Source: Acidobacteriota bacterium (GTDB taxonomy: Bacteria > Acidobacteriota > Vicinamibacteria > Vicinamibacterales > UBA2999). Taken from it: 38,281 nt of DNA. Shown here one piece after another: positions 3,969 through 29,758 of this stretch (position 1 is the first letter of the stretch; each line of letters opens with the position of its first letter). Both the position numbers and the translations under genes were made by a program. A model generated the notes under the pieces. That model was not told the origin of the DNA. It saw nothing but the letters and a program-made list of their open reading frames with translations, and did not search any database. The stretch covers positions 1 through 38,281 of the forward strand of contig JAHFUO010000007.1 in NCBI GenBank assembly GCA_023265015.1, given 5' to 3'.

Positions 3969-4748
3969 GTGAGAAAGCTTTTTGTTGTCTCGGTGCTGCT
4001 CGCGACAGCTCTGCCCGTTCTTGCGCAGAACCCGAGGCGCGCTGCACCGCCGACCGGCCCGGTGCCGAGACTGCCCAACGGGCAAGTGGACCTGAACGGC
4101 GTCTGGGTCGGGGGTGGACCGATCAACGACCTCGAGAGGGATGGGGGATTGAAGCCGGGGGACATAGACAATCTGCTGTTGCCCTGGGCGAAAGAGCTCA
4201 TGTCGAAGCGGGACGTGACCCTGGAGCCGCACAACCAGTGCCTGCCCATGGGCGTGCCGCGCACGACCCCATTTCCGTACCGGTTCGTGCAGAACTATAC
4301 GGACAAGACGCCGACGCACCTCTTCATCCTGCACGAGGGCAACATCCACACCTACCGCCAGATCTTCATGGACGGCCGGAAGCACCCCGACGATCTCGAC
4401 TCGACCTGGTTGGGGCACTCGATCGGCCGGTGGGAAGGCGACACGCTCGTCATCGACACCGTCGGTTACAACGACAGGTGGTGGTTCGATCGTCGCGGGC
4501 ACCCGCACACGGAGCAGTTACACACCATCGAGCGATGGACGCGGAAGGACATGGGGCACCTCGAGAACATCGTCACCATCGACGACCCCGGTGCCTACAC
4601 CAGGCCCTTCACGGTGAGATTCATGGCCACCTGGACTCCTGGCGACGAGTTGCTGGAGTACATCTGCACGGAGAACAATCAATACGGAGTGCAGACCCTC
4701 CCAGGCGGGCTACCTGCCGCCGACACCACGAACAGCGGTCGCCGGTAA
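3969..4748 (+). CDS. exported protein of unknown function, next to DUF6152 gene
   Basis: This 259-aa protein has a signal peptide ending near VLAQ (residue about 19). A Pro-rich stretch then leads into RLPNGQVDLNGVW, the R-x-P-x-G-x-x-D-L-x-G-x-W signature seen at the mature N-terminus of many exported acidobacterial proteins. The body has motifs HEGNIHTYRQIFMDGRKHP and WEGDTLVIDTVGYND, and ends with EYICTENNQYG. No catalytic family is recognised. The GTG start at 3969 has a good GAGGAGAG ribosome site at 3955-3962. The gene is the last of the receptor-DUF6152-exported protein run and ends against a hairpin repeat shared with the convergent gene. The long opposite-strand reading frames here are shadows. 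Confidence 0.72.
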   Translation: MRKLFVVSVLLATALPVLAQNPRRAAPPTGPVPRLPNGQVDLNGVWVGGGPINDLERDGGLKPGDIDNLLLPWAKELMSKRDVTLEPHNQCLPMGVPRTTPFPYRFVQNYTDKTPTHLFILHEGNIHTYRQIFMDGRKHPDDLDSTWLGHSIGRWEGDTLVIDTVGYNDRWWFDRRGHPHTEQLHTIERWTRKDMGHLENIVTIDDPGAYTRPFTVRFMATWTPGDELLEYICTENNQYGVQTLPGGLPAADTTNSGRR

Positions 4749-4756
4749 TCGTACGC

Positions 4757-4782
4757 GGCGGGTCCGCTTCGCGGAACCCGCC
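4757..4782. repeat. hairpin repeat between convergent genes, likely bidirectional terminator
   Basis: GGCGGGT-CCGC-tt-GCGG-AACCCGCC is a nearly perfect inverted repeat of the same family as 1-120. It sits between the stop of the exported protein gene (4748) and the stop of the convergent 87-aa gene (4783-4785). On the minus strand the element reads GTAGGGCGGGTTCCGCG, and its leading TAG is the stop codon of the 87-aa gene. A terminator role is inferred from position only; there is no clear T-run. Confidence 0.7.
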
Positions 4783-5046
4783 CTACTTTGAAATCTTCTT
4801 CATGTACGCCTCGAGCTTGTCGTTCTCGTACCGCACGGTATTCAGGAAGAGGCTCTCGAGCAGGTAGGCGCGCCGCTCGGTGTCGTCCATCTGGTCGATG
4901 AGGTGCGTGATCTCGCTCATCATGTCCTCGAAGGAGCGATCGAGCTCCCGCCTGGCCGTGACTTCGCGGTAGAGCGCCTCCATGATCGCGAGCAGGTCGC
5001 CGTCGAGATCGACTGGTACGCCATTCGTCGTGCTGATCGTTCGCAT
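4783..5046 (-). CDS. 87-aa helical protein of unknown function, downstream of STAS gene
   Basis: This 87-aa acidic, mainly helical protein begins MRTISTTNGVPVDLDGDLLA and ends YENDKLEAYMKKISK. No domain is recognised. The charge pattern (TARRELDRSFEDMMSEITHL, then DQMDDTERRAYLLESLF) suggests an amphipathic helical bundle. It lies two bases after the STAS gene, which itself overlaps the sigma factor gene, so the three are probably cotranscribed and it may be a third part of that regulatory set (inference). The ATG at 5046 is used; a longer frame to 5652 runs antiparallel through the sigma and STAS genes in another frame and is rejected. The stop codon comes from a hairpin repeat. Confidence 0.7.
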   Translation of the reverse strand: MRTISTTNGVPVDLDGDLLAIMEALYREVTARRELDRSFEDMMSEITHLIDQMDDTERRAYLLESLFLNTVRYENDKLEAYMKKISK

Positions 5047-5048
5047 GG

Positions 5049-5390
5049 CTATGCTCCGAAGCTCTTGATGGCCGACGGCTCGTCGGTGTGAATCTCGAGA
5101 AAGTTCTGCGCTCCCGTCATCGTCAGCATCGTCTCGACGCGCTTCTGGACGCCGGCCAGCTTCAGCACGCCGCCGGACGCGGTCGCCTGCCGGTAGAGAT
5201 CCATGAGGCAGCCGATGGTGGCGCTGTCCACGTAGGTGACGCTCGACAGGTCGAGCAGCATCTTGCGCTCGCCGCCGGCGATGAGCGACGTGATCATGCC
5301 GGCGAACTCCGAGAGGAGCGGGTACATCAGCCTGCTCTCCTGGACGCGGACGACGGTCACGCCCTGCGTGCGATCGGTGGTCAGATTCAT
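5049..5390 (-). CDS. STAS-domain anti-anti-sigma factor (SpoIIAA/RsbV-like)
   Basis: A 113-aa protein made of a single STAS domain. The core strand-loop-helix LLDLSSVTYVDSATIG places the usual phosphorylatable serine at about residue 56 (D-S, where SpoIIAA has D-S-x-G). In the known pathway an unphosphorylated STAS protein binds an HPK-type kinase anti-sigma factor (RsbW/SpoIIAB) and frees the sigma factor. No such kinase is encoded beside it here. The ATG overlaps the TGA of the sigma gene (ATGA at 5387-5390), indicating translational coupling. It could also take part in a broader phosphatase/STAS network elsewhere in the genome. Confidence 0.88.
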   Translation of the reverse strand: MNLTTDRTQGVTVVRVQESRLMYPLLSEFAGMITSLIAGGERKMLLDLSSVTYVDSATIGCLMDLYRQATASGGVLKLAGVQKRVETMLTMTGAQNFLEIHTDEPSAIKSFGA

Positions 5391-6004
5391 CCTGAAACTC
5401 CCGTTCTGGAGATGGGCTCCTGGCGCTCGCGCAGCCGGACGATCTGTCGCGCGAGCTCGGTACGGCCTCGATTGATGCGGGATTTGACGGTGCCTTCGGG
5501 CACGCCGAGTCGATCGGCGATCTCGTGGTAGCTGAGCTCCTGGATGTCGCGCAGCACGATCGCGGTGCGCAGCGACGGCGCGAGCTCGTCGAGCGCGACG
5601 CGGAGCATCGCCACCCGGTCCCGGCGCTCCAGCATGTCCTGCGCGCTGTCACTGGCCGCCGGGCGCGCCAGCGTGACGACGTCCACGTCGCGGTTGATCG
5701 CCTCGCGCTCGCGGCGGACGCGGCGGTAGTGATCGATGCAGAGATTGCGGCTGACGCTGATCAGCCAGGTGGAGAAGTTCGCGCGGCGGTCGAAGGTCCG
5801 CAGCGACCTGAACACCTTGAGGAAGACATCCTGCGTGAGATCCTCGGCCTCGTCGTGCCGGCCGACGAACTTGTACGCGATGTTGAAGACCTTGCGCCGG
5901 TAGAGGCGCACGATCGTGTCCCACGCGGCCTGATCGCCGTTCAGACAGCGCTCGATGAGTGGATCGATCTCCTGCGGCGGCGGCGCCGCGACGTCAGAAG
6001 CCAT
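5387..6004 (-). CDS. RNA polymerase sigma factor, ECF type
   Basis: A sigma-70 family protein of 205 aa from the ATG at 6004. Region 2 is clear (YRRKVFNIAYKFVGRHDEAE, then DLTQDVFLKVFRSL and FSTWLISVSRNLCIDHYRR). Region 4 carries a helix-turn-helix (LSYHEIADRLGVPEGTVKSR). Regions 1 and 3 are missing, as in ECF sigma factors. An alternative ATG at 6043 would add 13 residues and overlap the lysA start, so 6004 is preferred. It heads a three-gene minus-strand operon with a STAS protein and an 87-aa protein, rather than the membrane anti-sigma factor usual for ECF sigma factors. Only about 37 bases separate it from the divergent lysA start. Confidence 0.9.
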   Translation of the reverse strand: MASDVAAPPPQEIDPLIERCLNGDQAAWDTIVRLYRRKVFNIAYKFVGRHDEAEDLTQDVFLKVFRSLRTFDRRANFSTWLISVSRNLCIDHYRRVRREREAINRDVDVVTLARPAASDSAQDMLERRDRVAMLRVALDELAPSLRTAIVLRDIQELSYHEIADRLGVPEGTVKSRINRGRTELARQIVRLRERQEPISRTGVSG

Positions 6005-6041: not shown

Positions 6042-7307
6042 ATGATAACATGCGATTTGCTCGTGTACCAACCGTTTGAGCCTACAGGTCACGGTCTTGC
6101 CTGCGACGGCGCCAGCATTCAATCGATCGTCGATCACGCCGGGACGCCGACCTACGTCTACAGCGCGCGCGCGATCCGCGACGCGTACCGCGCGATCGAC
6201 GACGCGTTCGCCTCGTACCCGCACGTCATTCACTACGCGCTGAAGGCGAACTCGACGCTCGCGATCATGCGCCTGCTGCGATCGCTCGGCAGCCGCGCCG
6301 ACGCCAATTCCGGCGGCGAGATCCGCGTGGCCGAGCGCGCCGGCTTCGCGCCGAGCGACATCGTGTTCACCGGCGTAGGGAAGACGCGCGAGGAGCTCGA
6401 GTACGCCATTGCCACGGGCGTCGGCGCGATCAACGCCGAGTCGGCGGGCGAGCTCGATCGCATCGCGGCGCTGGCGTGCACGCAGGGGCGTGTCGCGCGC
6501 GTCGCCGTGCGCGTGAATCCGGACATCGACGCGCAGAGTCATCCGAATATCTCGACCGGCCTCAGGACCAACAAGTTCGGCGTGCCGCTGCAGGACGCCC
6601 GCGCCATCTACCGCGAACGGCGCGGCACGAAAGGGCTGCGGTTGGTCGGCGTCCACATCCACATCGGCTCGCAGATCACCACGCTCGATCCGCTCCGGCG
6701 AGCGGCGGCATCGCTCGTCTCGCTTGCGCTCGAGCTCGGTGACGACGGCGTCAGCCTGGAACATCTCGATCTGGGCGGCGGGCTTGGCATCGCGTACGAG
6801 GGCCGGCCGATCATCAACCCCGCCGACTACGCGGGCGCGGTGATTCCCGAGCTGCGGCGCAGCGGTGTGCCGGTCGTGCTCGAGCCGGGACGCGCGGTGG
6901 TCGGCCACTCGGGCGCGCTGGTCGCGCGCGTCGTCGACACGAAGCGCTTTCCCGACGGCCGGACGTTCGCGGTGCTCGATGCGGGGATGGGCGAGCTCAT
7001 TCGCCCGGCGCTCTATGGCTCTTTCCACCGCATCGTGCCGGTCGCGCCGCGGCCGGGCGCCGAGACGGCCTGGGACGTCGTCGGGCCGATCTGCGAAAGC
7101 AGCGACGTGTTTGCGCGCGATCGCATGCTGCCGCCGCTCGAAGTCGACGACCTGGTCGCGATTCTCGACGCGGGCGCGTATGGATCGGTGATGGGCTCGA
7201 ACTACAATCGCCACCTGCTGCCGGCGGAAGTGATGGTGGATGCCGGCGCGTGGACGGTCATTCGCCGCCGGCAGACACTGGAGGACGTGCTGTCCCTTGA
7301 AAGCTAG
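6042..7307 (+). CDS. lysA: diaminopimelate decarboxylase
   Basis: A 421-aa PLP enzyme that makes L-lysine from meso-diaminopimelate, the last step of lysine synthesis. Fold III features are present: HYALKAN with the PLP lysine at about residue 68, HIHIGSQI, the phosphate-binding GGGLGIAYEG, EPGRAVVG, and the second-domain CESSDVF with its catalytic cysteine, then GAYGSVMGSNYN. The length fits the family (about 415-430). ATG 6042 is chosen from the family length; TTG 6057 or GTG 6063 are possible because no strong ribosome site is seen. The tmk gene starts inside its 3' end, implying cotranscription. Confidence 0.95.
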   Translation: MITCDLLVYQPFEPTGHGLACDGASIQSIVDHAGTPTYVYSARAIRDAYRAIDDAFASYPHVIHYALKANSTLAIMRLLRSLGSRADANSGGEIRVAERAGFAPSDIVFTGVGKTREELEYAIATGVGAINAESAGELDRIAALACTQGRVARVAVRVNPDIDAQSHPNISTGLRTNKFGVPLQDARAIYRERRGTKGLRLVGVHIHIGSQITTLDPLRRAAASLVSLALELGDDGVSLEHLDLGGGLGIAYEGRPIINPADYAGAVIPELRRSGVPVVLEPGRAVVGHSGALVARVVDTKRFPDGRTFAVLDAGMGELIRPALYGSFHRIVPVAPRPGAETAWDVVGPICESSDVFARDRMLPPLEVDDLVAILDAGAYGSVMGSNYNRHLLPAEVMVDAGAWTVIRRRQTLEDVLSLES

Positions 7308-28975: not shown

Positions 28976-29167
28976 GACTCCAGTATTGTACCACTCTGTC
29001 CGCCTGTGGCAGGCCGTTCGCTTGGGCTGGCATCCGATAAGCTCAGGCGGATGGACGCCTCACCAGCGACCACGCAAGGTTTTGAGTCGTATCATGGACT
29101 TTACGGCCGTACGGCGGCAGTGGCCGTCTTATCCGACGACCGGACCGGCGGGCCCCCGGATCCAGAC

Positions 29168-29758
29168 ATGACGTTGACGGACGACGAGCTCGTCGCCAGA
29201 TCGATGGGTGGCGATGCGGAGAGCTTCAATCAGCTCATCCTCCGATGGGAAAGGCCGATCTACGCCCTGGCGTACCGGGTGATTGGCCGCGAGGAGGACG
29301 CGCGTGACGTGTGCCAGGAGACCTTCCTCCGCGCGTTCCGCGCCCTGCCCGGGTTCAAGGGCCAGGCGAAGTTCTCCTCCTGGCTCTATCGCATCGCGCT
29401 GAACCTCTGTCGCGACTGGATCCGCCGGCAGCGTCGCGCGCCCGTGATGCAGATACCGGAAGGTGTCGACCCCGGCGACCTGCTGGCGGAACGCGGTCCG
29501 GTTGAATCGATCGAGGAGTTCGTGTCGCGACGCGAGCTGAGCGCGGTCGTGGAAGAAGCCATGGCGCTGCTCCCCGAGGAGCAACGGACCGCGATCATCC
29601 TCAAGGAGTACCACGGGATGACGTTCCAGGAAATCGCGGACATGCAGGGATGTCCGCTCAGCACGGTGAAGACGCGGCTGTACCAGGGATTGAGCGTGCT
29701 GCGCCGGCGCCTGGAAAAGAACGGACAGATGACGCCGCAACTGGTGAAACGAACATGA
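29168..29758 (+). CDS. RNA polymerase sigma factor, ECF (SigE/RpoE-like)
   Basis: About 196 aa from the ATG at 29168. Region 2 is clear (NQLILRWERPIYALAYRVIG, then DVCQETFLRAFRALPGF and FSSWLYRIALNLCRDWIRR). Region 4 is also clear (ALLPEEQRTAIILKEYHGMT, then FQEIADMQGCPLSTVKTRLY). The next gene overlaps its stop and encodes a zinc anti-sigma factor, the standard control for this class. Longer frames from ATG 29051 or 29006 add residues not typical of the family, so 29168 is chosen, though its ribosome site is weak. Confidence 0.92.
   Translation: MTLTDDELVARSMGGDAESFNQLILRWERPIYALAYRVIGREEDARDVCQETFLRAFRALPGFKGQAKFSSWLYRIALNLCRDWIRRQRRAPVMQIPEGVDPGDLLAERGPVESIEEFVSRRELSAVVEEAMALLPEEQRTAIILKEYHGMTFQEIADMQGCPLSTVKTRLYQGLSVLRRRLEKNGQMTPQLVKRT

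Follow-up and report, generated by a model that had tools for sequence, protein, structure and literature searches.

The window, that is, the whole stretch of 38,281 nucleotides analysed here (Acidobacteriota bacterium, contig JAHFUO010000007.1), carries on its minus strand three consecutive genes, here named S, T and Q. The features of the locus, with positions in the window, are:

5387-6004, minus strand: S, an ECF sigma factor of 205 aa (Sigma70_r2 E 2.9e-22, Sigma70_r4_2 E 3.3e-16)
5049-5390, minus strand: T, a STAS protein of the RsbV/SpoIIAA type, 113 aa (PF01740 E 5.5e-15; matches SpoIIAA chains in the PDB)
5223-5225, minus strand: codon of T Ser56, the predicted phosphorylation site, aligned to the first Ser of the SpoIIAA MDSSGLG motif
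4783-5046, minus strand: Q, an 87-aa protein, candidate anti-sigma or adaptor (conserved in the class, with a confident AlphaFold2 model; no known family)
6042-7307, plus strand: lysA, divergent and upstream of S-T-Q, given for context and used as a tree marker; the order lysA-T-lpxC is also found in genomes with an orphan T (see below)

The stop codon of S and the start codon of T share the sequence ATGA, a 4-nt overlap, and the ATG of Q lies 2 nt past the stop of T. Among 156 unique trio loci, the S-T gap was -4 in 81 and the T-Q gap was 1 or 2 nt in 93. With the helical AlphaFold2 model of Q described below, this bears out the claim of an earlier note on this DNA that sigma and STAS genes overlap translationally and are followed by a third gene for a small helical protein. 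In S, Pfam places Sigma70_r2 at residues 32-98 and Sigma70_r4_2 at residues 133-184, and TIGR02937 matches at E 1.6e-34; as it has these two regions and no region 3, it qualifies as an ECF factor. T is a stand-alone STAS domain of the RsbV/SpoIIAA type, with PF01740 spanning residues 4-106 and a TIGR00377 score of 51.6 bits, slightly below the cut-off of 53.45. The search for a promoter upstream of S was negative, as an ECF-like GAAC...CGTC pattern was present in 3 of the 109 loci (out of 156) with enough upstream sequence, compared to 5.45 in shuffles. A Radical-SAM/SPASM-like gene downstream of Q, so labelled by eye, was rejected as a part of the module because only some loci have it. The window also holds a second, unrelated ECF sigma gene with regions 2 and 4 (29006-29758, plus strand), 33-34% identical to S.

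When 193 genomes of the class of the window were searched, Q was found in 168 at E<=0.001 (108 of the 119 good-quality genomes) and an S ortholog (E<=1e-36) also in 168; by-eye comparison of the two tables gave 166 genomes with both and 23 with neither. Q without S was found in two class genomes, one with a decaying locus (G108) and another in which the locus ends after 125 residues of S (G187, locus L196), and S without Q only in G172 and G175, both at contig ends. Thus, no uncut S-T pair lacking Q was present among the 193 genomes, and relatives with sigma and STAS but without Q, which would have refuted the reading of the earlier note, did not turn up in this set. The order S-T-Q on one strand was conserved in 147 of the 149 class genomes whose Q locus was examined, the exceptions being G046 (contig end) and the decaying G108. 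In a GTDB scan, the trio was present in 77 of 80 named loci, which are the best 80 of 135 relatives and overlap with the other class genomes, and the remaining three were cut. In a sample of the whole phylum, Q was found in 49 of 396 genomes, six of them outside the class, where three have the linked trio and three T-Q alone; no match to Q was obtained in viral contigs or plasmids. Over the 156 unique triplets, the mean pairwise identities were 0.60 (S), 0.59 (T) and 0.57 (Q). The S-T-Q module is therefore ancient, and almost the whole class has it.

Two loci deserve separate mention. In the decaying module of G108 (L203), the N-terminal part of T is fused into a remnant of Q and S is a fragment. 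The assembly of the window itself contains a second lysA-trio (L211, G000:C72:1-5272), at 4155-5271 and ended by the contig end, with identities of 65% for S, 64% for T and 75% for the partial Q; since tmk and lysA are doubled too, this copy may have come into the MAG as a contaminant and not be a genuine duplication.

Q is a real protein under purifying selection and not a chance ORF, as indicated by its presence in most genomes of the class and by dN/dS values of 0.06-0.26 (7 pairs). Four of its residues, Glu23, Glu45, Glu74 and Asn75, are invariant across the 141 rows of the alignment. AlphaFold2 run with these 141 rows gave a model with pLDDT 91.0 and pTM 0.74 (pLDDT 78.7 with 25 rows), in which a hairpin (strands 3-5 and 11-13) precedes three helices (18-33, 39-51 and 55-86). 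Against Pfam, nothing scored over the cut-off, the top line being the coiled-coil model PUMA_CC (E 2.4e-4, below its cut-off). Foldseek and VIA searches of the PDB with two models gave no significant match (best E 2.5, best Z 3.9), nor did a search of BFVD with the second model (best E 1.6); the predicted fold may be new, empty PDB and BFVD searches being no proof of this. No zf-HC2 match was obtained for Q in Pfam, nor among 25 members of the family, and the Q of the window has no Cys. A likeness to NepR, suspected at first because of a motif, was dropped for want of profile support in Pfam (E<=1 for Q, E<=0.1 for the 25 members); the fold searches were empty for NepR too, which excludes nothing. 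In these searches Q resembled no known anti-sigma by sequence or by fold, a point against reading it as one.

Q gave no match in 25 class genomes, and in 10 of these a close T (68-81% identical) was detected, one case (G175) being explained by the end of its contig. The remaining nine genomes, all of the same family, have an orphan T between lysA and lpxC without Q and without an intact S; in G131 an internally deleted remnant of the sigma gene is still present. No S ortholog was found elsewhere in these nine genomes, where the best ECF matches reached 33-40% identity and G131 gave no ECF match at the limit used. A LysA plus LpxC tree requires the orphan-T state to have arisen three times, and the AU test rejects a single clade (p 0.0003); taken alone, the STAS tree shows four origins, but does not force more than one. 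S and Q were lost jointly in three separate lineages while T was kept between them, and since S and Q flank T, a single deletion does not explain this pattern.

The relatives of S were then considered. An ECF factor matching S at E<=1e-36 was present in 237 of the 396 phylum genomes, and 20 such loci without an adjacent Q were sampled, namely the loci of G198, G213 and G225 and 17 others picked among the best rows. None of the 20 had a STAS match beside the sigma gene. In 13 of 16 sampled relatives, the open frame directly downstream carried a zf-HC2-type HxxxCxxC motif, the zf-HC2 label being confirmed for one such protein. The sigma of these Acidobacteriota ECF plus zf-HC2 (ZAS) loci is closely related to S (44-50% identity among the loci sampled), but they have a zinc-finger inhibitor, no STAS and no Q, and several of them continue into LiaF-like and DUF4097 genes (labels tested on one locus). 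At the 156 trio loci there is no zf-HC2 beside S, the only HxxxCxxC motif (L260) being in a frame unlike zf-HC2. The trio sigmas form one group with support of 85/89, which is not firm. As T-Q occupies the place that zf-HC2 has beside most sampled relatives of S, it probably replaced a zinc-finger anti-sigma there. However, zf-HC2 can be lost without Q being present, since in G432, G281 and G314 an S-like sigma adjoins neither.

One lineage, comprising G198, G213, G225 and G237, has its sigma gene in a LiaF/DUF4097-type operon without zf-HC2 (0/4), and in three of the four (G198, G213 and G225; G237 is 79% complete) T-Q is sited elsewhere in the genome. The assignment of these three unlinked sigmas as S orthologs was withdrawn, ECF matches at E<=1e-36 being so widespread in the phylum. 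Intact Q was not seen in any genome devoid of an S-like sigma. In G198 (L198:1448-3329), T-Q follows a gene for a GAF-GGDEF diguanylate cyclase, a possible link to c-di-GMP signalling. At L228 and L229 (G198 and G213), ECF sigma, LiaF-like and DUF4097 genes are followed by a further ECF gene, a zinc-finger-like gene and more DUF4097-like proteins, which by their sequence labels would make up a large envelope-type regulon cluster.

The joint loss of S and Q in three lineages, together with the position of T-Q in the place of the zinc-finger anti-sigma, favours Q as an unrecognised anti-sigma or adaptor. The T-Q pairs without S in G198, G213 and G225, with the nearest sigma in another operon, speak against such a model and would fit a true T-Q pair directed at a target other than S, where S would just share their transcript or activate their transcription; the GAF-GGDEF gene ahead of T-Q in G198 points the same way. 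This explanation is very improbable, given that nine genomes keep T and lose Q along with S and that all three T-Q-only genomes have an S-like sigma elsewhere. Alternatively, Q could be a positive partner, a cofactor that is controlled by T and either makes S more stable or assists its binding to RNA polymerase. Q is small and helical, and co-loss with S would be expected of any obligate partner, inhibitor or helper; nevertheless, STAS proteins are known to antagonise inhibitors, and T-Q fills the site that zf-HC2 anti-sigmas take up beside related sigmas, so that a cofactor role seems improbable.

Regarding control of T, its Ser56 aligns with the first Ser of the DSSG motif of SpoIIAA, a place occupied by Ala in the 1tid chain, which we take to be the S58A mutant. 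Ser56 is invariant in all 156 trio T and all 9 orphan T proteins (165/165), so that a phosphorylatable Ser is always available and T looks switchable, as judged from its sequence. Separately, Tyr66 and Phe97 of T are relaxed positions in the orphan proteins. The earlier note saw no kinase here, and indeed the S-T-Q locus contains no kinase gene; beyond the locus the statement does not stand, as a stand-alone RsbW-like kinase of 151 aa (PF13581 E 7.6e-25) is encoded on another contig of the same genome. Such a kinase is present in 168 of the 193 class genomes (113 of the 119 good-quality ones), and 7 of the 9 genomes with an orphan T have kept it. This enzyme is a candidate for the natural kinase of T, its near-universal presence being neither proof of this nor specific to the module.

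The widespread kinase, the phosphoserine site of T and the match of T to SpoIIAA would suit the main rival explanation, a classical switch of the RsbW/BtrW type in which the unlinked kinase itself is the anti-sigma of S, T is its antagonist and Q has an accessory role, such as stabilising S or T or serving either of them as a specificity adaptor. Both the kinase and T survive, however, in 7 of the 9 genomes lacking S and Q, which argues that this pair has another job, and the fact that Q, and not T, shares the loss of S is left unexplained. A kinase acting as the anti-sigma is therefore considered unlikely.

Coevolution was analysed by mean-field DCA on 156 unique triplets (effective number 66), obtained from 247 by dropping 7 that were truncated or contained stops and removing duplicates among the others. 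Inter-protein pairs scored like pairs within S, and thus no partner could be named by this method.

The preferred reading, with a probability of around 45%, is that S-T-Q constitutes an ECF partner switch in which Q is the anti-sigma of S or an essential adaptor, T counteracts Q, and T in turn is reset by the unlinked kinase. We infer each contact, the direction of control and the kinase and phosphatase actions as follows. Q, in place of zf-HC2, would inhibit S as a cytoplasmic anti-sigma or serve as the essential adaptor of that inhibition; unphosphorylated T would bind Q and release S; the unlinked RsbW-like kinase would phosphorylate T at Ser56 and so reset the switch, and an unlinked phosphatase would restart it. 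The compact partner switch of the earlier note, with Q as anti-sigma or adaptor, is supported in part, by the threefold co-loss and the position of T-Q, with the modification that the genome does encode a kinase, though an unlinked one.

The proposed module resembles RsbV-RsbW-sigma B and SpoIIAA-SpoIIAB-sigma F in having a STAS antagonist with a phosphoserine motif, translationally coupled to the sigma gene, but differs in the ECF type of the sigma, in the lack of a kinase in the locus and in the presence of the 87-aa Q instead. The btr locus of Bordetella (PMC7498569) comprises the ECF sigma BtrS, the anti-sigma BtrA/BspR, the STAS protein BtrV, the kinase BtrW and the phosphatase BtrU; as proposed for S-T-Q, a STAS protein is thus encoded together with an ECF sigma and an anti-sigma distinct from the kinase. 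The btr kinase and phosphatase genes are linked to the others, and BtrA is secreted, whereas S-T-Q has no linked kinase. In NepR-PhyR-EcfG (PMC8999054), as proposed for S-T-Q, a third protein relieves an ECF sigma of its small soluble anti-sigma, but that antagonist is a sigma-mimicking response regulator, whereas in S-T-Q it would be a STAS protein. NepR-PhyR is also what partner switching refers to in the accessible portion of a review of non-canonical ECF factors. Among titles and opening lines of abstracts, no publication describing an S-T-Q module was found; this ECF group may already be listed in the main re-classification of ECF factors.

A more far-reaching version, possible but less likely than not, is that Q represents the first member of an anti-sigma class with a hairpin-plus-three-helix fold, which would have replaced the zinc-finger anti-sigma early in this branch of the Acidobacteriota and brought S under direct STAS control, with the kinase as an unlinked reset enzyme. 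As Q is compact and has a confident model, the claim could be tested using three small proteins. If true, it would provide a partner switch whose kinase is no longer the inhibitor of the sigma, a case where evolution has swapped the anti-sigma but kept the sigma lineage, and this in a near-universal regulator of an abundant and poorly cultured group of soil Acidobacteriota.
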